Positions 26,293-43,882 of a stretch of DNA of 64,000 bases are shown in pieces. The position numbers were made by a program, and so were the translations under genes. This DNA is from Paraflavisolibacter caeni (GTDB lineage: Bacteria > Bacteroidota > Bacteroidia > Chitinophagales > Chitinophagaceae), in assembly GCF_025628885.1 (NCBI RefSeq), contig NZ_JAOTIF010000026.1, positions 1 to 64,000 on the forward strand, read 5' to 3'. The number at the start of each line of letters is the position of its first letter. Position 1 is the stretch's first letter. Under the pieces are notes generated by a model. That model did not search any database. It saw only the letters and a list, made by a program, of their open reading frames with translations, and was not told where the DNA came from.

Positions 26293-26305
26293 TTGCACTA
26301 TAATT

Positions 26306-26360
26306 TCCAAACTCCAAACTCCAAACTCCAAACCCCAAACTTCAAACTCCAAACCCCTTC
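26306..26360. repeat. AAACTCC-type heptad repeat, copy 2
   Basis: Units AAACTCC repeat four times, followed by the same AAACCCC/AAACTTC/AAACTCC series as at 20930-20976, then a CACCATT run to about 26375. It fills the gap between the barrel and metalloprotease genes. Confidence 0.75.
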
Positions 26361-26423
26361 ACCATTCACCATTCAATTGTTAACGGTGATCATCAACCGA
26401 TGACTGCCTAAAATCTTACGACC

Positions 26424-29400
26424 ATGCGCAAAGCAATATTTTTCATGTTCATGACATGGCAACTCTTAGCTGCTAATATTTCCTTGCAGGCACAAAGCAT
26501 TGATCTGCCTGTCTTGATCCGGCCTCAAAACAAACAGGTGGTTACAAAATTGCAGGCACGTAACCTCGTTTTTAGTTGGCAACCTTCCATGAAGACCTTG
26601 CCCGGCGCTCTATACCTGTTCAGGTTGGTGGAAGTGAATCCCACCGACCGCGAACCCGGAGATGCCATGGAGTCAACCTCTGTGCCTTTATTGGAAAAAA
26701 CCATCCTCGGTACCACCTTTTTGTATACACCCGATTTACCTGCCCTATCGCCAGGGAAGACATATGCCTGGCAAATAAGTGCAATAGGTCTCCGTGGACA
26801 AAAGCCGGCATTGGATAGTAAGACGACAAGCGAAGCTTATACCTTTTCAATAGATTCAGGTTATTACGATTACTGCACTTGCTCGGTTGGTAATACATCC
26901 ATTCAGCGTACCAGTAAAAGTCCCAACTTCTTTACCTATCAGGGCACTGTCCAGGGCGGGTGCTCCGGAGATTATTACTGCCAGGGTACCAATCGTATAG
27001 AGTATTTGTGGCGGGTTGTTTCCGGTGCTGCCAACATCGAAGGTCCCGATAACGGCCCCACTGTGAACGTCGCTACAGCAGGCCCTGGCACCTTTACCAT
27101 TGAATTGAAAGGAACTGTGGTATGCAACGACAGCAACAATTGCAGTACCACCACCACCTACACAGATACCTTTGCTTATGAACCCAAAACTTGCGATTGT
27201 AATGTGGATGTCGATTGTAAAAAGGTAATCGGACAGGGAAACCTGCGAACCTTTGAAGGCGTCCTGAATGGCGGCTGTACCGGCGTACACGGTATGGCCC
27301 CTCCTTATGATACCTGTGGCATTCAAAATGTCACCTGGTTTTGGCAGGTGATCGAAGGTGGTGATGTGGCCGAAATAGAAGGCGCCGACAACCAGCAAAC
27401 CGTGAATGTGAAGATAAAAGGAACAGGCCCCTATCAAATGCGTGTGCAGGCAGATGTTACATGCAGCGATGGCTCCAAAACCTGTAACAGTTTTGACTAT
27501 TGCTTTGATACGGCAAGGGTAGAGAAAAAATGCACCTTCGTTTATTCCGAAAGCAATCAGCCGGCTATGGTTGGTGGATTGTATAAAGTATTGAAGTCGG
27601 GCGATCTGGCAATGTTCAGTAAAGAACAGAACGTATCCGGGAATAACAAGATCAGGAGGGATGATTACATTGCTCTATTCGCTAAGGGAGAGGATTTTGA
27701 TAAAGTAACCTTTGAATGCACCCCATCATACCAATGTGATGAGGCCCAAAAGAAAGGCACCAAAGATGTGCTCCTGGCAGGAAAGGTTCGGTTTGAATGG
27801 GAGATCCAGAATGGAGAGGGAAACTTCGTTAAGCTCGGTGCTCTGCCCGCAAATGTATCTAGTGATGTTGGTGACAGGGTGATCTTCCAACCTCCTTACG
27901 TGCCTTTGCCCGAGAACGGTCAGAAGAATTCCAAGACCACCACTATCTTTTTACGCACAATAGATGAAACTGGTACTGGGCAACTCCTGGATCAAAACAC
28001 CTACGACAATATTACCATCACCACCTCCCGTTTTAAAAACTCCGATGAGGATTATTATACCATTGAGGTACAAAACACGAATCAAACCTATTTTGCCAAA
28101 CCCAACCTCCAGGAAGATAATAATGGGGTTTGTAAAGCAACCTACAGCTGGGATAAACCGAACGACCTGAAAAGACCTACAATAAAACTGCCTCCGGTTC
28201 CCGATAACAATAAAATGGTCTTAGGTCAATGGATGGTTCTGGAAGCGAACAATCAAAATGAAACAGATGAACTGAAAATGGTTTGTGATGGCAAACAAAC
28301 ACAATGCGAGGAGGACGGTGGCAAAAAAGAATATCCTGATAACATTGAATGGACCTGGACAATCCAAAATGATGATGGTACAAAGGGTAGATTTATTGGA
28401 GGTAAAACAGGCCGTTATGTGATCTATGAAGCCCCCGACAGGATGCCACTGCCACGAATAAACGAGTTGTCTGTTGACATCGTTGTGAGCGTAAAGAACA
28501 CAGGGGTTCAAAAGAACGATGTCACCTTTACATCGAGCCCGATCTCATTTAAAATCTTTAAGCCGGGCGTGCAACTACAATACCCACCTTTAACCTGGTT
28601 GCCGGAAGATGGCAATTCAGTGAGCTTGAAATCATCTTTACTGTATTTTGAAAATGGTATGTGGAAACCAGCACTGGCACATATGTCCCGCATCCATTTC
28701 TTTGAATTATTAAACGTTTCTAAAGAAAAAGGGATATGCTTGAATGATCCGCTGCCACGAAGGGCCAGGCAATGCCGTGACCTGTTACTGAAGAAAGAAG
28801 GTCATACGGAAGTATTCGAACGATCCAAAGACCCTGGCCCTTTCAATTGCAACAACAAGAAGTATTATGTGCATGCACGCTCTCAAAAACCAGCAAAGGA
28901 AGAAACAGTTAAAGTAAATTCTGAAGACTTTGGCTCCTATGGTTTCTTGCGCAGCTTTGCCAATATCAACCAGGGAGGAAAAGACAGCATTAAAGGAGAA
29001 ACACCGGTCTATGAACCGGTGCCTATACCAGCGAATAAGTTGCCGCATCCTTTAGGTAGAGCGAAGAAGACGATCTATTCAGACAACCGCGTTACAATAC
29101 CAAGAGATGTAGATGAAAACCACATAGCCGACAATGGTTGGACCACATTAGGAGGAGCACGAATACCCGACCCTCAAAATCCGAAGGTGGATAATGACAA
29201 CCAGCTGCCGGGTGATGGCTTCAATGGGGATGGCCTGTCGAACTACGAAGAATACAGGGGATTTTATGTCAGCGGTAGTCACCTGCGCACCAACATCAAT
29301 AATAAAGACCTGTTCGTTCACAATTCTGATGGTGCAAATTTAATAACCTTCCAAAGCGTGTTGTTGAGTCCAGCTGGAGAAAGGGTATATGTCCATGAGA

Positions 29401-30011
29401 TCTATGAAGAGGAATACATTAGTAACGCCCGCCGTGAGATCAATTTCAATTGTAACCCTGACTTGCATCCTGATGGCACAAATGCTGGAGCTGCAGGAAC
29501 TGCCCCTGTTCAGAAAGGTTTGTTCTTAAGAAATGCAATAGCTGTAGTGGTAGGCCTTAATGGGAATATTGAATCCCGGAATAATCGTCCGGCTCCCCCC
29601 AATTGGGTGCAACGTGTCAATATCTATCCGGCAAACATTACTGCTTTCTGCCTTAGAATGGGTTTAAACCTTCCAACCAAACTTAACCAGGTTACGGCTC
29701 ACGAATTGTGCCATGCAATAAATATCTATCACCATGGCCGGGGTGTGAATGTACTAAACGGGCTAAGAAGCGGGGACATGCGTTGCATCATGAGGTATGA
29801 TAACCGTTTACCTACAGTCCCCGGCTTCATCCCGGAACCCATAGGAAATATTCTATGCGATAGCAATTTGGGCACAGGTTATAATGCCCGGATACCATGT
29901 TCCCCTTTGGTGCCTGCCAGCAGGTGCTTCGGGAACGCTGATGTAAACAGGGGCTTTTGCATCCGTAAGATCAGGGTTTCCTGTACTCAATTCCCATATC
30001 CTCAGTACTAA
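26424..30011 (+). CDS. large secreted multidomain protein with C-terminal metzincin zinc protease
   Basis: The 1,195-aa protein has a signal peptide (…NISLQAQ). Residues ~30-145 form a fibronectin/DUF-like beta domain. Two cysteine-rich PKD-like domains follow (~150-250 and ~255-370), then further beta domains. A Ca-binding-like segment DGFNGDGLSNYEEY lies near 930-945. The C-terminus carries HELCHAINIYH with His1093, Glu1094, His1097 and His1103, the HExxHxxN/GxxH zinc site of metzincins, and a Met in MRCIMRY ~20 residues on could be the Met-turn. I infer a secreted or surface peptidase. Substrate is unknown. It is followed 32 bp later by the 30044 gene. Confidence 0.82.
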   Translation: MRKAIFFMFMTWQLLAANISLQAQSIDLPVLIRPQNKQVVTKLQARNLVFSWQPSMKTLPGALYLFRLVEVNPTDREPGDAMESTSVPLLEKTILGTTFLYTPDLPALSPGKTYAWQISAIGLRGQKPALDSKTTSEAYTFSIDSGYYDYCTCSVGNTSIQRTSKSPNFFTYQGTVQGGCSGDYYCQGTNRIEYLWRVVSGAANIEGPDNGPTVNVATAGPGTFTIELKGTVVCNDSNNCSTTTTYTDTFAYEPKTCDCNVDVDCKKVIGQGNLRTFEGVLNGGCTGVHGMAPPYDTCGIQNVTWFWQVIEGGDVAEIEGADNQQTVNVKIKGTGPYQMRVQADVTCSDGSKTCNSFDYCFDTARVEKKCTFVYSESNQPAMVGGLYKVLKSGDLAMFSKEQNVSGNNKIRRDDYIALFAKGEDFDKVTFECTPSYQCDEAQKKGTKDVLLAGKVRFEWEIQNGEGNFVKLGALPANVSSDVGDRVIFQPPYVPLPENGQKNSKTTTIFLRTIDETGTGQLLDQNTYDNITITTSRFKNSDEDYYTIEVQNTNQTYFAKPNLQEDNNGVCKATYSWDKPNDLKRPTIKLPPVPDNNKMVLGQWMVLEANNQNETDELKMVCDGKQTQCEEDGGKKEYPDNIEWTWTIQNDDGTKGRFIGGKTGRYVIYEAPDRMPLPRINELSVDIVVSVKNTGVQKNDVTFTSSPISFKIFKPGVQLQYPPLTWLPEDGNSVSLKSSLLYFENGMWKPALAHMSRIHFFELLNVSKEKGICLNDPLPRRARQCRDLLLKKEGHTEVFERSKDPGPFNCNNKKYYVHARSQKPAKEETVKVNSEDFGSYGFLRSFANINQGGKDSIKGETPVYEPVPIPANKLPHPLGRAKKTIYSDNRVTIPRDVDENHIADNGWTTLGGARIPDPQNPKVDNDNQLPGDGFNGDGLSNYEEYRGFYVSGSHLRTNINNKDLFVHNSDGANLITFQSVLLSPAGERVYVHEIYEEEYISNARREINFNCNPDLHPDGTNAGAAGTAPVQKGLFLRNAIAVVVGLNGNIESRNNRPAPPNWVQRVNIYPANITAFCLRMGLNLPTKLNQVTAHELCHAINIYHHGRGVNVLNGLRSGDMRCIMRYDNRLPTVPGFIPEPIGNILCDSNLGTGYNARIPCSPLVPASRCFGNADVNRGFCIRKIRVSCTQFPYPQY

Positions 30012-30043
30012 ATGCTCATATTCCAGTTATTAAAATCTATTGT

Positions 30044-30919
30044 ATGAAAAAGCTGATGCTATTTACTGTTACCTGCCTATTGGAATTTGTGATAGCCAAC
30101 CCTCAGGGCAGGTATTCAATTTCCTGCAGTGTTGCAGATGGAGATACGACCACTATTTATCACAACCAGCCTTTAGTGTTTTCTGTAAGTATTACGAATA
30201 AGGAGGCATATAAAAATTGGCAATGGAACATGGCCGCGGACGAATGGATACAGGAATTGGAAGCAAACTTCAAAGCAGGGAAATTATCGGAAGAAGATTA
30301 TAATGAAGAAAAAGAAGTGGCTATCAAAGGGAAAAAAACAGGGAAGGCTGATACCCTGGGTACACTTGCGCATCCTTGGTACGAACAATTGAAATTCTAT
30401 GTGTTCCAGGACGATAGCATTCAAAAGGAGGCATGGCCTGTGAGCAGGCTGGGAATAACGCCCAATGAAGCAGTTGCTGTATTGGATGAAAATGCAAATT
30501 ATTTGCTTTATTGCCACATGCCTCCTGAAATGGTTTCTTTGATCAAACCTGGTAGTTATTCCATTAAGGTTTTGCTAGGCGACGTCCGGTCTAATCAGGT
30601 TAAAATAACTGTGCTACCTGGGGATATACCTCAACCTGTCTTGCAATCACCAGAAATGCAAATCCGGCTGGGACAATATTACTGGCTGGCAGGAAATGCC
30701 GATAAAGTATTCAGTTATGCAAATGCTGTCTTGCAAAAAGATACATCCAATCTGGAAGCACTCATTTTAAGGGGTGAAAGCCATATTCTAAAGGAAAACT
30801 ATAAACTGGCTTTAACAGACTTTGAAAAAGCCCTGCAACTGCACAACAAGAAGTTTCCAAGCTTGTATGAACCTCCGGAATACCTGATCGGTACCATAGA
30901 ATGGCTGCAACAAAAATGA
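30044..30919 (+). CDS. exported TPR-like protein downstream of the metzincin
   Basis: The 291-aa protein has a signal peptide (MKKLMLFTVTCLLEFVIANPQ), a beta-rich N-terminal half with a Lys/Glu-rich insertion (~75-100), and a C-terminal pair of TPR-like helices (IRLGQYYWLAGNADKVFSYANAVLQ, ALILRGESHILKENYKLALTDFEKAL). It lies 32 bp behind the metalloprotease gene and ends at a strong terminator, so the two are probably co-transcribed. I infer a periplasmic or surface partner; no family is recognised. Confidence 0.7.
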   Translation: MKKLMLFTVTCLLEFVIANPQGRYSISCSVADGDTTTIYHNQPLVFSVSITNKEAYKNWQWNMAADEWIQELEANFKAGKLSEEDYNEEKEVAIKGKKTGKADTLGTLAHPWYEQLKFYVFQDDSIQKEAWPVSRLGITPNEAVAVLDENANYLLYCHMPPEMVSLIKPGSYSIKVLLGDVRSNQVKITVLPGDIPQPVLQSPEMQIRLGQYYWLAGNADKVFSYANAVLQKDTSNLEALILRGESHILKENYKLALTDFEKALQLHNKKFPSLYEPPEYLIGTIEWLQQK

Positions 30920-30926
30920 TAAGCTT

Positions 30927-30953
30927 AAATGAGCGGGTTTCCCCGCTCATTTT
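30927..30953 (+). terminator. Rho-independent terminator
   Basis: AAATGAGCGGG (30927-30937) pairs with CCCGCTCATTT (30942-30952) around a TTTC loop, followed by T. It lies 7 bp behind the stop of the 30044 gene. Confidence 0.85.
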
Positions 30954-31032
30954 AACATCTTGATGACTAACTCTGAGGGTAACAATGAGTCCAATTTGCG
31001 TATATACCAATAAGGAAATCAAATCCAAAGTC

Positions 31033-31353
31033 ATGAAAACACAAAATACACAACAGGAAATCATGCTGGTCTTGAACACTACCTTTTCTCAAAGAGAATG
31101 GTGCCCGGTAAATTCATCGAATAGCAAGCCTTTATCACAGGAAGAACGGCTAATAGAAGCTTGTTGGAATGGAATGCTCCCTGAACTGCTCCCGGAAATA
31201 ATGAATCAGTCCTCAAATGGCAAAAAACTTTTCTTGTGGCATATTCGTCAAAGCAAATCTCTTTTCATGGAATTGGGTGAATCCCCAGTCTCTATAGAAA
31301 GACATTCATCAATAGATCCTCATTATTTCATTCAAAATGATTTAATGAACTAA
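31033..31353 (+). CDS. small protein of unknown function
   Basis: ATG 31033 gives a 106-aa cytoplasmic-type protein (MKTQNTQQEIMLVLNTTFSQ at the start) that is rich in Glu, Ser and Leu, with no signal peptide or recognised domain. The frame is open further to 30985. It lies between the terminator at 30953 and the convergent CHAT gene, and might be an accessory to either neighbour. Composition looks coding, but there is no homology I can name. Confidence 0.45.
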   Translation: MKTQNTQQEIMLVLNTTFSQREWCPVNSSNSKPLSQEERLIEACWNGMLPELLPEIMNQSSNGKKLFLWHIRQSKSLFMELGESPVSIERHSSIDPHYFIQNDLMN

Positions 31354-31417
31354 ATATCTGTCCCGGTGTCCAGCCCGTTTTTATTCCTTGCCCCCCGATC
31401 CGGCTCTATGAAAACGT

Positions 31418-34400
31418 TTACTCAACCAAAACAAATCCAGCCCAGAAGAATGGCGGATATTGCTCTTTCATCTTTAACTGTGCAGCATGCAAGGCATCCT
31501 TGGTAGATTGTCCATTGATCCAGTTCCTGTAAAACTGGGCCATTAATTCCTTGGTTTCCTTGTCAGGTACACGCCACAAACTCAGCACCATCTGTTTCAC
31601 GCCTGCAAGCTTAAATGCCCGCTGCAAACCAATCACACCTTCATTACCTTGTAAATCGCCTAAAGCCGTTTCACATGCACTCAGCACCACCAGGTCTGTA
31701 GAACTCAGATCCAATTGTGCTATTTCATAAGCGGTCAGGATGCCATCTTCCCTGCCCGGCAGCGCGATCCCTCCCTTCCATGCATGATTGGCACCTGCCA
31801 ATACCAAACCACTCCGGAACATTGGATTTTGCTGAATAGTAAAGACATTCCTGTGCTCCAAAGGAGATGCCGCATTCGCCCTCACTTCAGGTACAGGCAG
31901 AAAAAAGCCATGAGTCGCCAGGTGCAATACTTGTGGACTGTGCACATCTAAACGCTTAAACGCCTCTTCTGTAGCATTCGAACCACTAACCGGGAGCACC
32001 TGCACACCTCCATGCAACAATATCTTTTGTAGACTGTCTATTTCCTCCTTCGTTCCCGGCAATGAATTCCATTCCTTGCCCCCTCTTATTCTACGCGTAT
32101 CAGATGCATAAAAATTAAAGGAACTAGCATTGCTATAGACGCCTGCTCTAACCTGCATAGTATCTGATGACTGTTGATAATCTATATTGCCCCAGGTATT
32201 GGCAATCTTGGGCTTTGCATTTCCTTCTGACGACAGGGCCAATGAACGGGTGCTGAGTAGTTGGTTCAATTGGTATTGGTCAATGAGCAAATGTGTGGAA
32301 TCATACCGCAAAGCTTGGAAAGCCACACGATGCAGCAAACCGGTAGGCGCAAAATAAATGGTATTGATATTTTTGAGAGAAGGCTCTAAGGGTTTCCATA
32401 TTAATTGGTAGAGCGAATCAGAAAAACTACTTTTTTCATCTTCAGAAACAATGATTCCCCGGTACAATTGATGAATGATTGCCTCTGCTCCATCTACGGA
32501 ATCTAGGGCGTTTATAGAGGTGTCAGGCCTTAATAATCGTTGCAACTGTCTTTCTTCAAATAAGGGCACGAATACAACATTACTATCTGCAGGCGATATG
32601 ATAAGCGCTGCATAAATGGTACTGTCCGTCCATTTTTTATGATACAATCCAAATCTTACAAATTCTATCGCAGCCTCACCTTTTGACAGGTGCTGCCTGA
32701 TCTTTTTTACATCTGCCTGCTGTTTAAACAACAGGTTTCTAAAAGGTAAAGCGAGGCTGGACAATTCTTGCTCCATCTGGTTGGCAGTCTCTTGTAATTG
32801 ATCGAGGTTGGGTACACGCCGGGAAATGGGCAGCAAAAGTTGCTTTCCAATAAAAGCTTTATACAAACGCCATTGATCAAATAATTGCAAAGCAACGCTG
32901 TCATTGCTTTTACGGATGCTATACAATACCTGCCGCTGGTTTTCCAATACCATTCCTTTAGAGATCAGCTCACTTGCATATAATTGTTGCAATTCTGGCT
33001 GTCCAGCTTTTTCCTGGGTATATAAGATCGAAGGAAGGTAATCAAACTGGTAAGCCTCTCTGTTGAGAAAGGCTAATTTGTCCTGCTCCGATAATGTAGA
33101 GTATGTTTGTGTCAATTGCTGAACCATGGTTGCATTAGCTTTATTGATAAAAGCCAACGCTTTTGCAACACTGTCCATCCTGGCATAAAGTAATCCCAGG
33201 CTATTCAGGTTGCTCACATAATCCGGGTGGTTTTCACCCAATACTCTTTTTCTGATGGCTAATGCCTTTTCATATAAGGACAGTGCATCCTGTTGATGAC
33301 CTGTTTGCTCATATAAACTGGCCAGGTTATGTAAACTTTGAGCATAGTCAGGATGTTCCTCTCCCCAGACTTTCTTCCTGATCGCAACAGCCTGTACCAG
33401 CAAAGGCAAAGCTTTTTCATACGCACCTTTTGCCATATACAGCCCTGCAAGGTTATTCAATCCAACAGTGTAATCAGGGCTCTCTTTCACCAATGATTTT
33501 CTGACAGCTAAGGCTTGTTCATATAATTTCAAAGCTGTATCCGGGCGCCCCATACTTTCGTATAATCCGGCAAGGTTTTCCAAAGTAAGGATGTACTTGC
33601 TGTGCTTTTCTCCCAATACTTTTTTTAAGATAGGTAAAGCTTCCAGTAACAAGGGTACTGATTTATCCGGCTGCCCGATGCGCTCATATAAAATAGCAAG
33701 GTCATTTAAGGATGTAGCATAATCAGGATGATCTGCCATCCAGTTTTTTCGAATGTCTACAGCCTGTAGCAATAAGGAAAGCGCTACATCATATCTTCCT
33801 AAACTCTGGTAAAGATTGGCCAGGCTATTTAAACTGGAAGCATAATGAGGATGCTGCTCGCCCCAAACCGACCTTTGTATGTCTACAGCTTGCTCATACA
33901 ACGGCAAAGCTTTATCATATTGCCCGATACGCACGTATAAACTTGCCAGGTTTTCCAATGTGGTCATATACCTGCTGTGCTTTTCTCCTGCAACCTTTTC
34001 TAAAATACCTAATGCCTGCTCATACAAAGGCAAGGCTTTATCATACTGCCCTATATGTTCATATAAAAAAGCCTGGTTGTGTAAACTGATGGCATAATCC
34101 AGGTGCTCTTCGCCATAAACCTCTTTTTTGACAGCTACAGCCTCGAGCATGAGCGGTATTGCTTGCTTATACTCACCCATGTACACATACACATTAGAAA
34201 GACCAATAAGGCTATTAGCGAATTCTGGATTTCCTGCCTTTTTTAATATAGCCAGTGCTTGTTCATATAAAGGCTTGGCCTTGTCTGCTTCTCCCATCTG
34301 GTAATAAGCATCAGCAAGACTATTCAAACTCTTGGCATAAGAAAAATGGGTCTTTCCAAAATAGGCCTCTTTGAGCGCTACTATAAATTTTCTGTATGCT

Positions 34401-35083
34401 GGTTCTTTAGTAACGAAGCCTTTATTAGGATATTGACTGGCCAGCATGGTAGCTGTATTCATGAATGCTTTTGCCTGTCTACCCAACTGATCCTTTGCAC
34501 CGGCGTTCATGAGTTGTTCAAAAACGGCCCACTGTTCTTCTTCAGCAGCAACGATCAATGGAGTACAGCAGCCTTCTGCATCCAAAACATCGATCTTGGC
34601 TCCATGTTGTAAAAGGTATTGTACATTCTCTGTTCTTCCGTTGGCTGCTGCCCAAAACAAAGGTGTCCAGCTATCTTTTTTCCTGGTATAAGGATTATAT
34701 CCTTTTTCATCCAATGGTAAATGAAGGGAATCTCCAAGGTATTGTAAGAGTGCAGGTGATTTTTTAGAGGCGGCAACGCCTTGTATATTACCAAAATAGC
34801 TGGCCCCCTGGTTAATGAAGATCACAACTGAATCACGAACTTTCAGATAATGCTGCACTAAATGCTTGACAATAGGTAAATCACAATAATAGGCAGCCCA
34901 CATCAGTAGGGCAGTTCCATTACTGTCAGCTTTATAGGTACCTGCTGTATCTTTTACAAATTGCTGTTGTAATACCGTCAGATCGCAGTTTCGGATGGCT
35001 TGCTGTGTAATACTGTCTGGCTGTGCATTTGCCGGAAAGAGACAAAGAACCTTAAACACCAATAATAAGATCAGGAAACGCAT
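31418..35083 (-). CDS. exported ankyrin-TPR-CHAT peptidase
   Basis: ATG 35083 gives a signal peptide (MRFLILLLVFKVLCLFPANAQ); the longer frame adds a soluble tail. The 1,221-aa product has ankyrin-like repeats (~35-215: TALLMWAAYYCDLPIVKHLV, TPLFWAAANGRTENVQYLL), about ten 42-residue kinesin-light-chain-type TPRs (~250-660), a helical linker, and a C-terminal CHAT domain with the dyad HLATHG (His~1058) and LSACETALG (Cys~1137). CHAT proteins are caspase-like cysteine peptidases. It is last in an operon with a sigma factor, an anti-sigma-like protein and a caspase. I infer a periplasmic peptidase whose repeats sense a ligand or substrate. Confidence 0.9.
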   Translation of the reverse strand: MRFLILLLVFKVLCLFPANAQPDSITQQAIRNCDLTVLQQQFVKDTAGTYKADSNGTALLMWAAYYCDLPIVKHLVQHYLKVRDSVVIFINQGASYFGNIQGVAASKKSPALLQYLGDSLHLPLDEKGYNPYTRKKDSWTPLFWAAANGRTENVQYLLQHGAKIDVLDAEGCCTPLIVAAEEEQWAVFEQLMNAGAKDQLGRQAKAFMNTATMLASQYPNKGFVTKEPAYRKFIVALKEAYFGKTHFSYAKSLNSLADAYYQMGEADKAKPLYEQALAILKKAGNPEFANSLIGLSNVYVYMGEYKQAIPLMLEAVAVKKEVYGEEHLDYAISLHNQAFLYEHIGQYDKALPLYEQALGILEKVAGEKHSRYMTTLENLASLYVRIGQYDKALPLYEQAVDIQRSVWGEQHPHYASSLNSLANLYQSLGRYDVALSLLLQAVDIRKNWMADHPDYATSLNDLAILYERIGQPDKSVPLLLEALPILKKVLGEKHSKYILTLENLAGLYESMGRPDTALKLYEQALAVRKSLVKESPDYTVGLNNLAGLYMAKGAYEKALPLLVQAVAIRKKVWGEEHPDYAQSLHNLASLYEQTGHQQDALSLYEKALAIRKRVLGENHPDYVSNLNSLGLLYARMDSVAKALAFINKANATMVQQLTQTYSTLSEQDKLAFLNREAYQFDYLPSILYTQEKAGQPELQQLYASELISKGMVLENQRQVLYSIRKSNDSVALQLFDQWRLYKAFIGKQLLLPISRRVPNLDQLQETANQMEQELSSLALPFRNLLFKQQADVKKIRQHLSKGEAAIEFVRFGLYHKKWTDSTIYAALIISPADSNVVFVPLFEERQLQRLLRPDTSINALDSVDGAEAIIHQLYRGIIVSEDEKSSFSDSLYQLIWKPLEPSLKNINTIYFAPTGLLHRVAFQALRYDSTHLLIDQYQLNQLLSTRSLALSSEGNAKPKIANTWGNIDYQQSSDTMQVRAGVYSNASSFNFYASDTRRIRGGKEWNSLPGTKEEIDSLQKILLHGGVQVLPVSGSNATEEAFKRLDVHSPQVLHLATHGFFLPVPEVRANAASPLEHRNVFTIQQNPMFRSGLVLAGANHAWKGGIALPGREDGILTAYEIAQLDLSSTDLVVLSACETALGDLQGNEGVIGLQRAFKLAGVKQMVLSLWRVPDKETKELMAQFYRNWINGQSTKDALHAAQLKMKEQYPPFFWAGFVLVE

Positions 35084-35122
35084 AACAAATAAATTGAGAT
35101 TTCTGCCCCAACCACCCACTGC

Positions 35123-37096
35123 CTACTTTCTGGATCTGGTTTCAAATAATACACTATAAATGCTGCCCTCCGAAGTGTTGACTTTTTCCATTCTGCCTTT
35201 TCTGGTTCCGATCTCAAAAGATTGATCTACCAGTTGTTCTAAAGAAGAGAGTTTGGCAGGTTCCTCCCCTCTCCTGACATTGACAATACCCTCCATATCG
35301 ATCTCTGTTTTTGAAGTAAATACTTTAAAGATTTCCATTCCATAAGGAGGTGCAATAACGATGAACGGTCTCTGGAATAATTTTGATTGGCCAGCTTCAA
35401 TTCTTAGATCCTGTGGATATATCTTCAACTGCTTGTTGGGAAATACCGGGTTTATAATTCCATCGGGCTGTAGATCCAGCACATTGAAATAAACAGGGTG
35501 ACTACTTTTATTTTTGATCCACAAGGCTATAGTATCTCCCTCATTAAAAACGTAAGTGCCATATTTAATCTTTTGATCAATCGCAGCAGTATTTGCTTTC
35601 CTTTGAAGTACCGGCACCAGCCTTACTTCTGTATTCGTGTTGGGATCATTGAATTCAAGCCCCTGCAGGAATTTATACTGTGCATAACGCCGGAGCGCTT
35701 CTATCAATGCTGTATTTCCAGGATCACTATGTTGAACCGTCTTATACAACTTTCCAGTCGTTGCAAATTTTATGGAATCTTCTTCTGAACCTTTTACAAT
35801 AATGAGCTCTGGTTCTCCTTCCCACGTAATAATGGGCAGTTCTTTTAGATTCTCTTTAAGCGATTTGGTATCAGTAAAGGAAATGAATTGAACGCCTATA
35901 GGATCCATGATGTAAACGGTTTCTGTGACAAATACCCAGGCGGATCCTTCCTGTTCAATACCTGCTTTTTTATCAAGTTGTACAATAGACCTGTAAAAAC
36001 CAGCCTTTGTAACATAGCCTGAAGCGAGTGCCGTTGCCTTTGTTGGATCAAGCGTTCCGGAAGGATAAACGGTAACTTTAGCACCAGAATCCAATCCTAC
36101 CAATTTTCCTGATTTTAAGGTCAGTTCTGTTCCTTTGATCTTTTCAATTTCTACAAAGGGCTTCTGTTGAACAAATTTTCCACCGAACAATTTACGGTCA
36201 ATGCCATTGCCTTCCAGCACGGGGTATTGACCCGGCCTTTTTGCTTGCACGATTGCCTGGACCTTTGAAAACAAAGACCGGTAGGTAATTCCTGCATCCA
36301 GGTTTTCAAAAGCCTTGCAGATGGCATAGGTTAATGCACCCATGCCCTGGTTGGCATCATCAGTTACCTCGAAACTGGCTTCACTGGCTCTTGCTGCAGA
36401 AAAAACCACGTACGTTCCCCATCCTTCTTGCTTGGTTCCCGTTGAGATATTTTCCATAAAGACACCAGATGCATCTTTGGCCGCAAATCGATGGGCATCA
36501 AAACCAACGGATACAAATGGGGGTTCATTGCCACGAACTTTAGCTAACCCACGAGTGCCGCTACCCGAATGGCATAGATCCATAAATACGACAATATCAC
36601 CATTGCTGCCTACTTTGTCACGGAGCTTGTCAATCAAGACCCCAAACTGGTCATCCCTGAAATAAGCTGCCTGTTCCTTAGTAAAGTCCCGTGAAAGTTC
36701 TGGCTTTATGGCATGATAAGTAACGATGGTTTCATCCAATCCATCAGTTTCATCGCCATTATCATCTTCTACCTGCTCACCATGTGTGGAAAAATGAATA
36801 ACAGCGATATCTCCAGCCTTCGCCTTTTGGATCAAAGCCATCAAAGCCCTGGTAATACCAGGTGGCGTCACTTCCGACTCAGTAATAGTTTGGATGTTAT
36901 TAGCTAAGAACCCCTGTTTCTGAAGAGCTGTTGTTATGTAAAAAACATCGCGGTTGCTGGAGAGTGCTGACCAGCCTCCTGCTGCAGGATAGTTGCTAAT
37001 GGCAAATAGTAAAGCATATTTTGTCTGGGCAGATACGCTCTGTATGCTCATTAGCACGATTAAAATCATGAATATTGCCCAATGGTTGTTTTTCAT
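35123..37096 (-). CDS. exported caspase-family peptidase (C14-like)
   Basis: ATG 37096 gives signal peptide MKNNHWAIFM...SVSAQ; the frame to 37138 only adds a soluble tail. The 657-aa product has a caspase domain at ~27-290: KYALLFAISNYP start strand, HFSTHGE (His105) and VVFMDLCHSG (Cys175), the expected catalytic dyad. The rest (~300-657) is beta-rich and includes a DUF4384-like segment (DTIALWIKNKSSHPVYFNVLDLQPDG). It lies 39 bp upstream of the CHAT gene and 56 bp downstream of the anti-sigma-like gene. It is predicted to be exported, so its targets should be in the periplasm or at the surface. Confidence 0.9.
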   Translation of the reverse strand: MKNNHWAIFMILIVLMSIQSVSAQTKYALLFAISNYPAAGGWSALSSNRDVFYITTALQKQGFLANNIQTITESEVTPPGITRALMALIQKAKAGDIAVIHFSTHGEQVEDDNGDETDGLDETIVTYHAIKPELSRDFTKEQAAYFRDDQFGVLIDKLRDKVGSNGDIVVFMDLCHSGSGTRGLAKVRGNEPPFVSVGFDAHRFAAKDASGVFMENISTGTKQEGWGTYVVFSAARASEASFEVTDDANQGMGALTYAICKAFENLDAGITYRSLFSKVQAIVQAKRPGQYPVLEGNGIDRKLFGGKFVQQKPFVEIEKIKGTELTLKSGKLVGLDSGAKVTVYPSGTLDPTKATALASGYVTKAGFYRSIVQLDKKAGIEQEGSAWVFVTETVYIMDPIGVQFISFTDTKSLKENLKELPIITWEGEPELIIVKGSEEDSIKFATTGKLYKTVQHSDPGNTALIEALRRYAQYKFLQGLEFNDPNTNTEVRLVPVLQRKANTAAIDQKIKYGTYVFNEGDTIALWIKNKSSHPVYFNVLDLQPDGIINPVFPNKQLKIYPQDLRIEAGQSKLFQRPFIVIAPPYGMEIFKVFTSKTEIDMEGIVNVRRGEEPAKLSSLEQLVDQSFEIGTRKGRMEKVNTSEGSIYSVLFETRSRK

Positions 37097-37152
37097 AACA
37101 GCAGTTTGAGCCAACTCCTCATTAATTTCCAACGCCACTTAAATCTCTAATC

Positions 37153-38247
37153 CTAATCCGCCTGATTCAAACTATGCCTTGTTAATTCACCCATTAATTT
37201 TACCCCTTGATCCCGGTAAATACCAGCCTGCTTTTCAACAGCAAGCTTTCTGAGATAATTCAAAGCCTTATCTGGTTCTCCGCTCTTGATATAAGCTAAC
37301 GACAGGTACCATAAAGTCTTTCCTTTGCTGAATGCATCTGGACTTCCGGCCAGGGCCTTTTCTAATTCCTGTATGGCAGTTGAAGCCCGGTTAATAGCTA
37401 AATAACTCAGGCCTTTAAAATAATGCATGTAAAAAGCAGCAAGAGCTTTATTGGTGTCGTTCCCCCTTGTCACTACATCCATGTTCACTTGTTCAAAGGC
37501 AGAAATAGCATCTTCATAATCACCACTTTCATAATGTTGATATGCAGTTTGTAAAGGACCTGCTTTACGAACCGGCAAAGTATCTGGTTTAAAGTTGCTG
37601 GCAAACAAGGCATCCAGTTTTCCAGCTTTTGGTCTATTCTGATGTACTTCTTCCTTAAGATTTTTCCCCGGTTTTACCTGGATAGATTCTTGTTGATGCT
37701 CCGGCTTTTCCACTACCACCCCAGGTTTATTTTGTTGATCGTCTATAGAAGGACTTTTTGAAATGGAATCTGTAATAGAAACGTCTGCTGAAGTATCAGA
37801 ACTGCTATGTTCTGACGCTATTTCCGGTTTATTTTGATCACCTTGTCTAAACCAAATGGTTCCCAATATAATAAGTCCAATGATGCTTGCTGCAACCGCT
37901 ATGCTTTTCCATAGCCGGACTCTTTTAACCTTTCCAAACACTACGCCGAATGGAATAACTGGAGTTGGCCCTTTTACAGGATACATGGTTACATTTTCTC
38001 CAGTTTCCCGCTCATGCTCATCTGGGAAATACCGTGTGCTGAGTTCATCCAGTGAACTTTTCAGTTCCCCTTCCTGGCTGCTATGTTTTGCACGCTCAGA
38101 CATTTCCTTCTCGATAGTTTGATAGAGCTTGAAAACGGCATACAACTCCTCGTTTGAGGCCATTTCCGCCTCAAATTGCATTCGCTCTTCATGGTTCATT
38201 TTCCCGTTAAGGTAATCGCCTATTTTTTCTAACCATGTTTCATTCAT
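37153..38247 (-). CDS. membrane anti-sigma-like protein with periplasmic TPR domain
   Basis: The 364-aa protein has an N-terminal anti-sigma-like segment (IGDYLNGKMNHEERMQFEAEMASNEEL split around residue 25), one transmembrane helix at ~114-133 after a basic KRVRLWK, an acidic/Ser linker, and two or three TPR units at ~225-350. The charge pattern puts the N-terminus in the cytoplasm and the TPRs in the periplasm. It starts 3 bp after the sigma gene stop. It most likely holds the sigma factor inactive until a periplasmic signal, possibly proteolysis by the two downstream peptidases, releases it. Confidence 0.85.
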   Translation of the reverse strand: MNETWLEKIGDYLNGKMNHEERMQFEAEMASNEELYAVFKLYQTIEKEMSERAKHSSQEGELKSSLDELSTRYFPDEHERETGENVTMYPVKGPTPVIPFGVVFGKVKRVRLWKSIAVAASIIGLIILGTIWFRQGDQNKPEIASEHSSSDTSADVSITDSISKSPSIDDQQNKPGVVVEKPEHQQESIQVKPGKNLKEEVHQNRPKAGKLDALFASNFKPDTLPVRKAGPLQTAYQHYESGDYEDAISAFEQVNMDVVTRGNDTNKALAAFYMHYFKGLSYLAINRASTAIQELEKALAGSPDAFSKGKTLWYLSLAYIKSGEPDKALNYLRKLAVEKQAGIYRDQGVKLMGELTRHSLNQAD

Positions 38248-38250
38248 ATA

Positions 38251-38823
38251 TCACCATTTCAAGAAATCAAACTTTGGAGATTGCTTTACCAATTGCATCA
38301 ATTTAGACATGCATTCTGATTTTTTCTTACGGGCATAACCATAGGTAACCTTGAGTATCTGGGCTACCTCATCCATTGACTTTCCACTCCAGCTTAAGCG
38401 CAACAGTTGCTGGCAACTTTCCCCCAATTCAGAAAGCTTTTCATGGAGCAATTCCATTCTTTCCTGTTTCAACTGGCATTCTTCTGCAAGCAGAAAACAG
38501 TTTTCGCCAATATGATATTCCTCCGGGTCCGAATTTGTTACCCCCCCTGCTTTCCTTTTATTCAACTCTTTCAACCATTTATTTTTACAAACCACATATA
38601 GGAAGGCGTCTAAAGGGCAGGATAAAGTAAAATTCTGCGTTTTGGCTTTATGAAAGATAGACATTAAGGCTTCCTGGAAAATATCTGCGGCATCAGAAGA
38701 ACTGCCATTATTTTGTAACACCATCCATTTGATCTTGCCTGAAAACTTTTGATACAACTCCTCTAACAAGGTGAAATCATTGTTGACCAACGCATCAATA
38801 TATTTCTGGTCAGGATGGGGCAT
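38251..38823 (-). CDS. ECF-type sigma-70 family RNA polymerase sigma factor
   Basis: The 190-aa protein has region 2 (~5-85: LYQKFSGKIKWMVLQN, DAADIFQEALMSIFHKA) and region 4 (~125-180: LSELGESCQQLLRLSWSGKS, MDEVAQILKVTYGYARKKKSEC), the layout of ECF sigma factors. No region 3 is present. It is the first gene of the operon with the anti-sigma-like protein (3-bp gap), caspase and CHAT peptidase. Its regulon is unknown, but autoregulation is usual in this family. Confidence 0.93.
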   Translation of the reverse strand: MPHPDQKYIDALVNNDFTLLEELYQKFSGKIKWMVLQNNGSSSDAADIFQEALMSIFHKAKTQNFTLSCPLDAFLYVVCKNKWLKELNKRKAGGVTNSDPEEYHIGENCFLLAEECQLKQERMELLHEKLSELGESCQQLLRLSWSGKSMDEVAQILKVTYGYARKKKSECMSKLMQLVKQSPKFDFLKW

Positions 38824-38839
38824 TGATACAATATTGAAA

Positions 38840-38862
38840 CAAAGATATTATTTAGAAATAAT
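38840..38862 (-). promoter_or_regulatory. sigma-operon promoter with adjacent palindrome
   Basis: On the minus strand TATCTTTG (38847-38840) matches the Bacteroidota -7 box TAnnTTTG, 17 bp before the sigma gene start. Immediately upstream, ATTATTT-AG-AAATAAT (38847-38862) is a perfect 7-bp palindrome that could be an operator. No clear -33 TTTG box is seen, so the call is moderate. Confidence 0.5.
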
Positions 38863-38870
38863 TTAATGGG

Positions 38871-39791
38871 TCATAGCCGTATATGGTAAGTATACGCTTT
38901 CGCTATCTCCGCTCCCACCATCGCATTATTCCTGATCAAAGCAATATTTGCCTGCAGGCTTTCACCTTTGGAATGATCTGCAATGTATTTCAACAGGAAT
39001 GGAGTGACTTCCTTACCCTTAATACCCAATTCCTCCGCCACCTTCAACGCTTCCTGTATATAAATTTCCATCTCCTCAGAAGGTACTTCCTCATCTTTTG
39101 GTATGGGATTGGCAATCAATACAGATCCTTTCAATCCCAATGCCCACTTCGTATGCATCAATGCAGCAATTTCCATAGTGGTATCCACCCTTAATGGAGA
39201 GGAAAACCCACTCTTCCGGGAATAAAAACTGGGAAATTCATCCGCTCCAATGGTCACTACAGGAATGCCCTTGGTCTCCAGGTATTCTAACGTCAATCCT
39301 ACATCTAAGATTGACTTTACACCTGCAGATATAACCGCAACCGACGTTTGTGCCATTTCTGTCAAATCCGCAGAAATATCCATCGTTGTCTGGGCTGCTC
39401 TATGTACACCTCCTATCCCGCCGGTAACAAAAACTTTGATGCCTGCCAAAGAAGCAATACGCATGGTAGCAGCTACTGTGGTAGCACCAACAAGCTTTTG
39501 ACTGATCACATAAGGCATATCGCGCAGACTAACTTTCCAGACATTCTTTGCTTTGCCTAGGTACTCAATCTGTTCCGGGGCTAATCCTACATGGCATTTG
39601 CCATGCATGATAGCGATTGTCGCAGGTATTGCACCACATTCTTTTACAATCGATTCAATATCCAATGCTGTTTGTACGTTTTGAGGATAGGGCATACCAT
39701 GAGCTATAATGGTAGACTCCAACGCAACAACTGGCTTGCGTTCAGCTAAAGCTTGCTGCACTTCAGGATGTATTGAAAGAAATGAATTCAT
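38871..39791 (-). CDS. psuG: pseudouridine-5'-phosphate glycosidase
   Basis: The 306-aa protein matches PsuG throughout: VVALESTIIAHGMPYPQN, ATIAIMHGKCHVGL, VGATTVAATMRIASLAGIKVF, VTGGIGGVHR, FPSFYSRKSG and the C-terminal ANIALIRNNAMVGAEIA. The enzyme cleaves pseudouridine-5'-phosphate into uracil and ribose-5-phosphate in the cytoplasm. Length is typical. A PsuK kinase is not in the window. It is divergent from the beta-helix gene at 39884 and lies upstream of the sigma operon on the same strand. Confidence 0.97.
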   Translation of the reverse strand: MNSFLSIHPEVQQALAERKPVVALESTIIAHGMPYPQNVQTALDIESIVKECGAIPATIAIMHGKCHVGLAPEQIEYLGKAKNVWKVSLRDMPYVISQKLVGATTVAATMRIASLAGIKVFVTGGIGGVHRAAQTTMDISADLTEMAQTSVAVISAGVKSILDVGLTLEYLETKGIPVVTIGADEFPSFYSRKSGFSSPLRVDTTMEIAALMHTKWALGLKGSVLIANPIPKDEEVPSEEMEIYIQEALKVAEELGIKGKEVTPFLLKYIADHSKGESLQANIALIRNNAMVGAEIAKAYTYHIRL

Positions 39792-39883
39792 CCTTTAAGA
39801 TAAAACTTAAAACAAAATTGAAGCAGGTGATTCAACTTTTATCTGGTATTTTTAATTTAGATAATGGAAGCTTAAATTAACAT

Positions 39884-42412
39884 ATGAAAAAGGCTATCCT
39901 GTTTGGCTGGTCATTACTAGCCATTTTGTTTTGCACCGCACAACAAGTAAAAAGTTACCAATCCCTCGATCCAAAGCAACCCATTGTGTTCGGAGGGAAA
40001 TACATTGTGTATAAAGGTGATACGGTTACGCTCGGCCCCAAAGCATTTTTCATTGACGGTCAATTAACCGACGCACAGGCAGCCGGCCAGCCTTTTGTGT
40101 ATAATTCAGTAAACAAGGCATTGGATCAACTCTCAAATGGTACGGAAGCTGCGCCCATGGTGTTGTACATTGCACCTTACGTTTATTGGATCGACAATCC
40201 GGATGATCCTGAAGTTCGGGTTTCAGAAAACGGCGAACCGCCTTACGGTAAGATCGTTAAATGTGATTGGTTGAAGTTTTATGGTTTATCCAGCAATGCC
40301 GGAAATGTGGTGCTTGCCTGCAACCGGGGACAAACGATTGGTGCTAAAGGCAATTTTACTATGTTCAAATTCATAGGTCAGGGCACAAGTTCCGAAAACA
40401 TCACCTTCGGCAACTATTGTAACATTGACCTGGTATACCCGCTCCTGCCACAATTAAACAGGCCAAAAAGGGCCTCAGCAATCGTGCAGGCCCAATTGAT
40501 TCATTGCAATGGTGACAAGATCCTGGCGCGTAATACCAGGTTTGTCAGCAGGCTCAATTTATGCCCCTTTGTAGGCGGTAAACGTGTTCTCTTTGATCGT
40601 TGTCACTTTGAATCGACAGATGATGCTTTATGCGGTACAGGTGTTTACCTGGACTGCTCTTTGGATTTTTATGCTTCCAAACCATTTTATAGTACCTCTG
40701 GTACCGGCGCTGTCTTTTTAAACTGCGACATCACATCTCACACCGGTGACAATCAACAATTTTTTACGAAAGCTAATGGCCAGGTTGCTGTTATAGATTC
40801 TCGTTTAACGACGCCCTCAGGCACCTACCTCGGCTGGAGAGATGTGGTCCCTGCTGAAACCCGTAACTATCAATTCAATGTTACGCAAAATGGCAAGCCT
40901 GCATTGATCAGCAAAAAAAATCCGGCTGCAACAGTGGAAATGGCCGGCAAACCTGTTTTGGATGCATATCGTTTCGAATACAATGGAAAAGTTATTTACA
41001 ATACATACAATTTGCTTCAGGGTAATGACGACTGGGATCCGATGAATATCAGGGAAACCGTTTTGGCTGCTGCTAAAGAAAGCGGCAAATCGTATATTAT
41101 GCAACCGGTACAACTACTCATTGCCCCTACCAGGATTTCACTGGAAACAACAAAGAATGATGTAACACTCACAGCACAGGTAGTGCGGTATGGCAACTAC
41201 ATTTTTACCGGGGATACGATAAAGTGGTCTGTTGCTCCTGATCAGAGATCCTTGGTCCGGTTGAAAATAAGTGAGAACGGTTCAACTTGCACTGTAACAC
41301 CTACCAATTTAAATGACGACACTAGGCAGGTAGTAATTACAGCAACCACCGCTTCTGGTTTGCAGGCAGCAAGTGTATTAACAGTAGCCCCTTCAAAAAT
41401 GGAAGCTCCTAAATTTAGTCTGGCACCTTCAATAGGCTTGATGAATAATGGCAAACTCCACGCAAATTATAAGCTGGATATGAGGTTTAAAGACCAGTCA
41501 GAGGTCACCTGGTACCGCTGCACCGACGCCAACGGCAGCTTCCCTGTAGAAGTGGCTGTATCAAGATTTGACACCCCCCTGCTCGCTTATACACTCTCAC
41601 CCGGTGATATAGGATATTACATAAAAGTTTCTGTAGCGCCTAAACACCTTCGTTGCGATGCTGGCAATCCGGTGAGTTTTATCATGCAAACACCCATAAG
41701 CGCAAAAGATGTAAAAGCTACCTCAAAAATTTTATATACAGACTTTAAAAACCTCTCTACTAAAAACCAACCAAGGGTAATACCCGGATTCTGGACATGG
41801 GAACACTTTGAACCTGCCGGTAATGACCCCAGGTTTACGGCCAATAAGGAGAGTGATGCCTGGTATTATGGACAAGGCAGTGAGGGCGCTGCAAATATGT
41901 TTGGATTATTGCAAGGCAGGAGCGCAGCGATGCGATATACACCGGTTGGCGATAACTACGGTGACATGAAATTAACAATGACCGTGGCCCCTTTTAAAAC
42001 TGCCGGACAAGGCTTTTCAGTGGCGCCTCTATACATGGATGTTCTGGTCAAGTTCGATACAAGATCAATGACAGGTTATGCTCTACGCTTTATACGTACA
42101 ACTAAATACCACGATGCGGTCGACTGCATCATGGTTAAATATGAAAATGGACAGGTAACCAATATGAGTGAGCCTGTCTCCACTACAGCTTTCAAAACAT
42201 CTTGCAAGATCACGGTAGAAGTAAAAGGCAATAAAATCCTTGCTGAGGCAACTACTTCCGCTCCCAATAGTACCGAAGCTGACAGGCCAGGTGTTTTCCC
42301 TGCAATTCAGATGGAAACAACAATTGTCCCAAATACATATGGTGGGTTTGGCATTCAATACAATGGCGGATCTCCAACACTTGTGAAAGATTTGAAAGTA
42401 GAATGGAAATAA
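39884..42412 (+). CDS. exported right-handed beta-helix protein, pectinesterase-like
   Basis: The 842-aa protein has a signal peptide (MKKAILFGWSLLAILFCTAQQ). Residues ~65-330 read like a carbohydrate esterase family 8 beta-helix (YNSVNKALDQL, VLYIAPYVYW, VLFDRCHFESTDDALCG, FLNCDI). The catalytic QDTL and VDFIFG motifs are replaced by DDAL and LDFYAS, so activity is uncertain. Residues ~420-560 hold Ig/PKD-like strands, and ~620-842 look like a concanavalin-like sandwich (YALRFIRTTKYHDAVDCIMVKYENG). It is probably a secreted polysaccharide-active or binding protein, though no polysaccharide-utilisation locus surrounds it. Confidence 0.65.
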   Translation: MKKAILFGWSLLAILFCTAQQVKSYQSLDPKQPIVFGGKYIVYKGDTVTLGPKAFFIDGQLTDAQAAGQPFVYNSVNKALDQLSNGTEAAPMVLYIAPYVYWIDNPDDPEVRVSENGEPPYGKIVKCDWLKFYGLSSNAGNVVLACNRGQTIGAKGNFTMFKFIGQGTSSENITFGNYCNIDLVYPLLPQLNRPKRASAIVQAQLIHCNGDKILARNTRFVSRLNLCPFVGGKRVLFDRCHFESTDDALCGTGVYLDCSLDFYASKPFYSTSGTGAVFLNCDITSHTGDNQQFFTKANGQVAVIDSRLTTPSGTYLGWRDVVPAETRNYQFNVTQNGKPALISKKNPAATVEMAGKPVLDAYRFEYNGKVIYNTYNLLQGNDDWDPMNIRETVLAAAKESGKSYIMQPVQLLIAPTRISLETTKNDVTLTAQVVRYGNYIFTGDTIKWSVAPDQRSLVRLKISENGSTCTVTPTNLNDDTRQVVITATTASGLQAASVLTVAPSKMEAPKFSLAPSIGLMNNGKLHANYKLDMRFKDQSEVTWYRCTDANGSFPVEVAVSRFDTPLLAYTLSPGDIGYYIKVSVAPKHLRCDAGNPVSFIMQTPISAKDVKATSKILYTDFKNLSTKNQPRVIPGFWTWEHFEPAGNDPRFTANKESDAWYYGQGSEGAANMFGLLQGRSAAMRYTPVGDNYGDMKLTMTVAPFKTAGQGFSVAPLYMDVLVKFDTRSMTGYALRFIRTTKYHDAVDCIMVKYENGQVTNMSEPVSTTAFKTSCKITVEVKGNKILAEATTSAPNSTEADRPGVFPAIQMETTIVPNTYGGFGIQYNGGSPTLVKDLKVEWK

Positions 42413-42500
42413 TACGGCTATGGCATCTTGCTCATGAATGTACTGGCAACTTTCTGCCCTGTATCACGTATTTTATAAGCAGAAGCCATAATTTGAAATA

Positions 42501-43118
42501 ATGAAGGCCAAATACTTGAATATTTTTTGTTGGTTGCTATTCTTGGGCATTACAGCTGATGCACAAGTGCCATCTGGGGCCAATTGGCACCTTGTAAAAG
42601 AAGGAAACGGCATTAAAGTGTATACGGCTCCATCCCCTTCGGGATTTAAGTATATCAAAGTAAATGCAGAGCTGAACGGTACGCTGAACAAGGTGATTGA
42701 AGTGTTCCGTGATATTGCAAGTCAAAAAGATTGGGTTTTTAAAACCCGGAAAGCCAATCTGATCAAAAAAATAGATGACAACAACTTTATATATTACAAC
42801 GAAACCTCTCTACCCTGGCCTGCAAGCGACCGGGATATAGCTATTCATATGAATCTGGAAGAAGGCCCTTCAAATCATGACCTTACCATTACCCAGAAAG
42901 AAGCTCCGGATGCCACACCTGTTAAAAAAGGCATCGTGCGGGTTCCCCATTTATCAGGAACTTGGAAATTCCGCAACACTGACAAAGGGAAGTTACATGC
43001 AGAGTACTACCTGGATATTGATCCTGGCGGTTCTTTGCCAGCCTGGATTGTCAACATGTTTTCTGCTAAAGGCCCCTATGAGACTTTTGTAAATCTTCAA
43101 AAAATGATCCGGGAGTAG
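42501..43118 (+). CDS. exported START-domain lipid-binding protein
   Basis: The 205-aa protein has a signal peptide ending ITADAQ followed by a single START domain (~25-205): WHLVKEGNGIKVYTAP, FKYIKVNAELNG, WVFKTRKANLIKKI, YYNETSLPWPASDRD. START domains bind lipids or sterols in a hydrophobic cleft. It is followed 27 bp later by a PAP2 phosphatase gene, which is consistent with a lipid-related transcript. Confidence 0.88.
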   Translation: MKAKYLNIFCWLLFLGITADAQVPSGANWHLVKEGNGIKVYTAPSPSGFKYIKVNAELNGTLNKVIEVFRDIASQKDWVFKTRKANLIKKIDDNNFIYYNETSLPWPASDRDIAIHMNLEEGPSNHDLTITQKEAPDATPVKKGIVRVPHLSGTWKFRNTDKGKLHAEYYLDIDPGGSLPAWIVNMFSAKGPYETFVNLQKMIRE

Positions 43119-43145
43119 AAGCAACCACTTATTTTTATCCTGATC

Positions 43146-43838: not shown

Positions 43839-43882
43839 CCTTCCCAATATTCAGAAACAATTACCTTGCACGTTTGTTGTAT

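Follow-up and report, generated by a model that had tools for sequence, protein, structure and literature searches.

A stretch of 64,000 nucleotides (nt) from Paraflavisolibacter caeni (NCBI RefSeq GCF_025628885.1, contig NZ_JAOTIF010000026.1, positions 1-64,000; hereafter the window) carries an operon of four minus-strand open reading frames (ORFs) at 31418-38823, encoding in this order an extracytoplasmic function (ECF) sigma factor, a membrane anti-sigma-like protein, a caspase, and a peptidase with ankyrin repeats, tetratricopeptide repeats (TPR) and a CHAT domain. Comparison with other Bacteroidota revealed that the conserved unit is sigma/anti-sigma/CHAT and not the four-gene order, and that the caspase is a separate, insertable partner of this core. 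The reading preferred here, with a probability of roughly 0.45, is that of an envelope-based sigma switch operated by proteolysis, in which the exported TPR-CHAT peptidase would be the site-1 protease or its trigger and the caspase an accessory.

A sigma/anti-sigma/CHAT core recurs in Bacteroidota

With ATG starts, the four genes are separated by 3, 56, and 39 nt, and their ORF positions and Pfam matches bear out the co-directional arrangement with small gaps described in an earlier note on this DNA (the original prediction). The first gene (38251-38823, minus strand) encodes an ECF-type sigma-70 factor of 190 amino acids (aa), recognized by Sigma70_r2 at 29.4 bits (cut-off 24) and by TIGR02937 at 70.7 bits (cut-off 42.9). 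The second (37153-38247, minus strand) encodes a 364-aa anti-sigma-like protein, laid out as an N-terminal helical part, a predicted transmembrane (TM) segment at about residues 115-137, a linker, and a C-terminal TPR domain recognized by TPR matches; its single hydrophobic stretch peaks at 2.42 at residue 115, and an NCBIfam anti-sigma model matched it weakly (E = 0.0078, 16.2 bits against a cut-off of 100). As in membrane anti-sigma factors, the gene directly follows that of an ECF sigma factor and the product has one TM segment, its N-terminal part being a putative sigma-binding domain. The caspase ORF (35123-37138) runs from a GTG, its likely start being the ATG at 37096, which gives a protein of 657 aa (35123-37096, minus strand); it belongs to the Peptidase_C14 family (PF00656, 71.5 bits against a cut-off of 21.4), and its C-terminal part gave a weak DUF4384 match. 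Likewise, the CHAT ORF (31418-35119) opens with a GTG, and the ATG at 35083 is the likely start of a 1221-aa protein (31418-35083, minus strand) with Ank_2, TPR_12, and CHAT matches, the last of which (PF12770, 218.8 bits against a cut-off of 24) establishes its family. With these ATG starts, the dyads His105/Cys175 of the caspase and His1058/Cys1137 of the CHAT peptidase are the very residues named in the original prediction.

For comparison, the CHAT part was searched in 394 genomes of the family, 52 of which matched (E up to 1e-20), and in 395 genomes of the phylum, where 38 matched, including three already in the family set. The regions compared (loci bear L numbers) were 100 fetched ones together with the window, L039 and L091; 102 of these 103 had a CHAT ORF of more than 400 aa (L186 had none), and seven of about 75 family CHAT genes and five of 45 rows outside the family were left out. 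A sigma factor was found within three genes of CHAT at 31 of the 102 loci. Counted per gene, sigma factors accounted for 32 of 555 genes at distances of one to three versus 7 of 620 at four or more (Fisher p = 5.9e-6), in agreement with the predicted linkage of a sigma/anti-sigma pair to a TPR-CHAT peptidase. Because linked loci supplied the seeds for the sigma and anti-sigma profiles, unlike sigma factors may be missed at any distance; the 38 Sigma70_r2 matches in the 7.0-Mb genome, among which the paralogous sigma at C1 is not listed, give an approximate control for the distant rate, 7/620.

In 29 of the 31 linked loci, the gene after sigma lies on the same strand and its product has one hydrophobic peak (at least 1.77 in 28 and 1.47 in L159). 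Besides the window, the linked loci spread over 8 family and 23 genus codes (7 and 22 without L178). L178 is counted in the 31 though no anti-sigma gene follows its sigma gene, and at L145 the sigma gene is cut at the contig end; L179 and L181 are near-duplicates, L195 and L196 stand outside the 31, and L102, at a contig end, is labelled unlinked. The co-occurrence of all four genes across Bacteroidota, raised by the original prediction, thus holds for the core, whereas the order sigma, anti-sigma, caspase, CHAT was found at only 2 of the 102 CHAT loci, namely the window and L091 of the same genus, and was dropped as the conserved unit. L096 (G114), whose gene sizes fit the operon, was also rejected, its proteins being neither sigma nor anti-sigma. 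The rarity of the exact four-gene order could suggest that the genes are chance neighbours without a common function, but the enrichment of sigma factors near CHAT relative to distant genes, the spread over several families, and the gaps of 3-56 nt make this the least probable of the explanations weighed here.

Among the 29 linked loci with a sigma factor of more than 140 aa, sigma lies upstream on the same strand in 19, and the arrangement is divergent in five and convergent in five. Since no common promoter is possible in the convergent loci, co-transcription alone fails to explain the linkage. At 15 of the 19 same-strand loci, no ORF other than the anti-sigma gene separates sigma from CHAT; the remaining four are the window, L091, L155, and L118. 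At the thresholds used, the P. caeni genome has two CHAT genes and two caspases, and both CHAT genes adjoin a sigma/anti-sigma pair. The second CHAT protein (L039) also has a predicted signal peptide, and its gene lies 429 nt from a divergent pair resembling that of the window (52% identity for the sigma factors, 36% for the anti-sigma-like proteins); the sigma factor of L101 is 56% identical to the window's. The gene following the paralogous pair (L039:1350-4361) encodes a TonB receptor plug domain protein. Two or three TPR-CHAT genes in tandem were observed at L103 (G074:C162), L104, L106, and L123.

A FastTree phylogeny of 123 CHAT domains placed the window with L039, L100, L101, and L102 (support 100). 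At the first three of these relatives, sigma, anti-sigma, and CHAT occur with no intervening caspase, and L102 is cut at its contig end. The linked label, which on this tree includes L195 and L196 and not L178, required 13 changes versus 29 when shuffled, and none of 500 shuffles was as low. Judging from these sequences, the core is probably older than the arrival of the caspase in the window operon.

Conservation of the dyad bears on the way in which CHAT acts. The alignments took in 23 of 29 linked CHATs, 19 of 27 anti-sigmas, and 16 of 27 sigmas, each with the window's protein, and the CHAT His and Cys were invariant in all 24 aligned sigma-linked domains. Action by repeat binding, as a scaffold or co-anti-sigma rather than by proteolysis, would agree with the presence of TPRs in both the anti-sigma-like protein and CHAT; with the dyad invariant, it is considered very unlikely.

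Predicted export and the proposed sigma switch

Signal peptide and TM calls were based on our own hydrophobicity rules and not on SignalP. These rules predicted a signal peptide for both peptidases, as the original prediction had claimed, ending in SVSA↓QTKY in the caspase and ANA↓QPDS in CHAT, with Gln at position +1 in both. Cleavage by signal peptidase I in Bacteroidetes is reported to expose glutamine in most substrates (PMC5837995), a pattern to which both predicted signal peptides conform. Such a signal peptide was assigned to 27 of 33 sigma-linked CHATs versus 291 of 1150 other ORFs of more than 200 aa; the linked count takes in L195 and L196, which have an anti-sigma-type neighbour and no detected sigma, and leaves out L178, with which it becomes 28/34. 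The peptidase and the C-terminal part of the anti-sigma-like protein are therefore predicted to lie on the same side of the membrane. In 8 of 32 listed CHATs (L158, L159, L179, L181, L183, L184, L188, and L193), an N-terminal hydrophobic stretch is accompanied by a C-terminal one above 1.7, and these proteins are possibly anchored on the periplasmic side. The signal peptide of the L101 CHAT has a lipobox-like VTAC, and this protein may be a lipoprotein.

In the proposed switch, the one-TM anti-sigma would at rest tether the ECF sigma factor to the inner membrane by its N-terminal part, which would lie in the cytoplasm, while its linker and TPR domain, according to the predicted topology, would be in the periplasm. 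The peptidase would be activated when the ankyrin and TPR repeats of CHAT bind either a ligand or an envelope protein that has suffered damage, and would then make the site-1 cut in the periplasmic part of the anti-sigma; intramembrane and cytoplasmic proteases of the host would subsequently free the sigma factor, as in the RseA and Csx30 precedents. We infer each of these cuts and their order, as well as the regulon and the ligand. Three points favour CHAT as the enzyme that cuts the anti-sigma: predictions put the peptidase and the C-terminal part of its presumed substrate on one side of the membrane, the catalytic residues are conserved, and gene linkage persists even where a common promoter is impossible. 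A motif of roughly YF..D...P..L (37531-37608, minus strand) lies directly before the TPR domain and is common to many of the anti-sigma proteins (alignment A1); it is a possible recognition or hinge site.

The peptidases could alternatively be the output of the system, in that an anti-sigma sensing through its own TPR would restrain the sigma factor, which in turn would switch on exported peptidases (CHAT, with or without a caspase or an M48-like enzyme) that remodel or digest the envelope or foreign proteins. This alternative carries appreciable weight, though it is considered the less probable one. At 19 of 29 loci, sigma lies upstream in the same orientation, as this alternative would lead one to expect, and the occurrence of unlike peptidases in the slot before CHAT is consistent with it; the convergent arrangement in 5 of 29 loci, which leaves no common promoter, is not. 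The promoter of the window operon also argues, weakly, the other way. A candidate -7 box, TATCTTTG (38840-38847, minus strand), begins 24 bases ahead of the sigma ATG and exactly matches TAnnTTTG, given as the -7 consensus of the Bacteroidota primary sigma factor (PMC9723704); the operon thus has a primary-sigma-like box and no evident ECF promoter. TAnnTTTG was absent from the five other upstream stretches inspected.

Several results weigh against the proteolytic switch, and some of them favour the peptidases as output. No sigma was detected within three genes at 71 of the 102 CHAT loci. The linked sigma factors that were aligned are diverse (14-56% identical to that of the window) while the CHAT dyad is constant, and this diversity suggests that sigma/anti-sigma pairs may have been recruited as regulators of peptidase genes; a common promoter motif was looked for in six upstream stretches and was not found. 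By the same signal peptide rule, 75 of 84 unlinked CHATs are predicted to be exported (intact starts, six with a cut start being left out), about as often as the linked ones, suggesting that export is a general trait of these CHAT proteins that predates, or is independent of, the sigma linkage, and CHAT export may serve another task. Moreover, 41 of the 119 inner branches of the CHAT tree have support under 80, and the structural models are poor, with a predicted local distance difference test (pLDDT) score of 51.8 for the AlphaFold2 anti-sigma model from one sequence (below 50 in the linker) and 41.5 for the caspase model from three sequences. The caspase adds two further points, since 37 of 59 caspase loci have neither a TPR-CHAT nor a WD40-caspase as direct same-strand neighbour, and a sigma factor lies within three genes in only 4 of the 59, the window not being among the four.

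The caspase as a separate partner

The EACC1-associated caspase model scored 24.6 on the window caspase against a cut-off of 140. Relatives of this caspase were detected in 63 of 394 family genomes (E up to 1e-10), and a scan for related loci with the caspase as single protein returned three loci. At the 59 loci examined, the window included, the direct same-strand neighbour was a TPR-CHAT gene in 14 and a WD40-caspase gene in 8, the latter count including L058 by its C-terminal part alone; the 37 with neither partner include L074 and L091, at which CHAT is split or one ORF more distant. Compared with the four loci that have a nearby sigma, these 14 and 8 neighbours indicate that the caspase is tied to repeat-bearing peptidases more than to sigma factors.

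A window-family caspase gene stands in same-strand tandem with the gene of a long WD40-caspase at L005/L040, L041, L045, L046, L047, L006, L094, and L058. An early profile iteration had labelled long neighbours as caspases; Pfam and motif checks then gave WD40 repeats in all four of those scanned. Among these four, the long neighbour at L058 is the one with a C14 domain among the matches listed, and this domain scores over the cut-off. The motif search covered nine long neighbours and detected the caspase-type Cys motif in eight and the His motif in six.

In the sigma-linked loci, a caspase lies between anti-sigma and CHAT in 2 of 31, namely the window and L091. The latter has the order sigma, anti-sigma, caspase, CHAT, second caspase, and its first caspase (551 aa, C14 at 64.8 bits, over the cut-off) is very divergent from that of the window (phmmer E = 0.003). 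At L155, where a sigma factor is present, the protein encoded in the slot between anti-sigma and CHAT looks exported and has a HELAH motif and TPRs; it is M48-like at 17.4, under the Pfam cut-off of 20.3. A relative of this protein at L156 exceeds that cut-off (M48, 22.2), but no sigma was detected there.

Within the proposed switch, the caspase would have been added between anti-sigma and CHAT and is most likely the second peptidase of a pair, because such caspases recurrently pair with repeat-bearing, exported-looking CHAT or caspase proteins. CHAT would then be the repeat-bearing sensor or initiator, and the caspase, which has no repeats, would be switched on by it, or the reverse. A more elaborate form of this scheme is a periplasmic initiator-executioner cascade, in which the ankyrin-TPR-CHAT protein senses an envelope signal and activates the caspase, one of the two cuts the anti-sigma, and the slot is a cassette in which exported peptidases (two unlike caspases and the M48-like protein) are swapped; such a cascade is regarded as doubtful.

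Surroundings, related systems, and significance

The operon is preceded at 47 nt by a psuG-like gene (Indigoidine_A). On its other side lie convergent plus-strand ORFs. One of them encodes an exported-looking 1195-aa protein (26424-30011), which has a zinc-peptidase-like motif, HELCHAINIYHH, and matches no Pfam family (E up to 0.001); the gene of a TPR protein comes next (30044-30919, TPR match), and the third ORF has 122 aa. Synteny with the same-genus locus in G353 was considered and rejected; across four compared stretches, the one close match is the psuG-like gene (76%), which lies about 12 kb from the G353 operon, and the remaining matches are weak or are the peptidases themselves.

These surroundings bear on the idea that the operon serves in anti-phage or predator-triggered suicide, with the peptidases as killers and a logic akin to that of caspase and CHAT defence effectors. 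Caspases are described as effectors in predicted prokaryotic conflict systems (PMC8195603), the distribution is patchy (CHAT in 2 of 9 sampled genus members, E up to 1e-20), and the ankyrin repeats of the CHAT protein score 45.6 bits with PDC-M72A, a PADLOC candidate model. That match, however, consists of repeats, and the other PADLOC matches are to TPR, PrimPol (E = 0.022), and caspase models; neither sigma nor anti-sigma matches any PADLOC model. Among the nine flanking proteins scanned, three had no Pfam match, and the other six match families (START, ABC transporter, sulfatase, and VWA/YfbK among them) whose names do not point to defence. Furthermore, predicted export would put the peptidases outside the cytoplasm. 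A suicide device is accordingly rated as unlikely.

One of the closest resemblances is to the type III-E CRISPR system, in which the TPR-CHAT peptidase Csx29 is reported to cut Csx30 and thereby to regulate CASP-sigma (PMC10028731). As in that system, a TPR-CHAT peptidase with a His/Cys dyad occurs in the window together with an ECF sigma factor and its putative inhibitor; unlike in that system, the window CHAT is predicted to be exported and would act on the opposite side of the membrane. The operon is alike in logic to type III-E CASP but is no member of it, so that the parallel drawn by the original prediction stands as a resemblance. Only one two-copy 21-nt repeat was detected in window positions 25000-45000, the sole stretch scanned, which agrees with the predicted lack of a CRISPR array. 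For Cas7-11/gRAMP, the Pfam RAMPs model PF03787 gave no match in the P. caeni genome (E up to 0.001), compared with matches in 4 of 14 control genomes. A 20-protein anti-sigma profile (the window plus 19 of 27) gave 24 PDB matches (E up to 0.1), none of them named Csx30, in a comparison by sequence only and with the presence of Csx30 in that set unchecked. The best PDB match of the CHAT profile is another CHAT protein, 8rot_B (E = 0.0019), and CHAT chains of 666-746 aa, which we take to be Csx29, are reached only weakly, at E 0.1-0.15.

Regulated proteolysis of a membrane anti-sigma factor is exemplified by the RseA-DegS-RseP-ClpXP pathway. Both there and, by prediction, in the window, a one-TM anti-sigma has a periplasmic part that is the presumed target of an exported protease; unlike in that pathway, the site-1 cut in the window would be made by a caspase-like cysteine peptidase that carries ankyrin/TPR repeats and is encoded beside its sigma factor. 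RseA-type proteolysis is also named in PMC10028731. Genes for ECF54 sigma factors are described as having carboxypeptidase, subtilase, and CHAT genes in their context, and proteolytic control without an anti-sigma has been proposed for them (PMC8999054). By gene context, an ECF sigma factor is linked with CHAT both there and in the window, whereas the window has a one-TM anti-sigma-like protein and a CHAT predicted to be exported. A 2012 account describes metacaspase operons that include sigma factors in Myxococcus and others (PMC3501461); there too a caspase and a sigma-70 factor share an operon, but the passage concerned mentions neither CHAT nor a membrane anti-sigma. EACC2-caspase loci are described with an ECF sigma factor and a TPR (DUF1822) protein as neighbours (PMC8195603); caspase, ECF sigma, and TPR protein adjoin there as in the window, with a different domain set. 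A Bacteroidota set of sigma, anti-sigma, and exported TPR-CHAT was not named in titles or abstract openings within the open full-text literature searched.

If the proposed switch is true, control of a sigma factor by CHAT via an inhibitor would not be peculiar to type III-E CRISPR but would recur in Bacteroidota as a means of envelope signalling, acting across the membrane from its CRISPR counterpart. CRISPR may have taken up an older sigma-inhibitor-CHAT logic, the direction of such a transfer being speculation. The small, self-contained sigma/anti-sigma/peptidase sets would allow direct testing of substrates, and the switch would provide a possible function for the exported caspases and TPR-CHAT proteins of bacteria.

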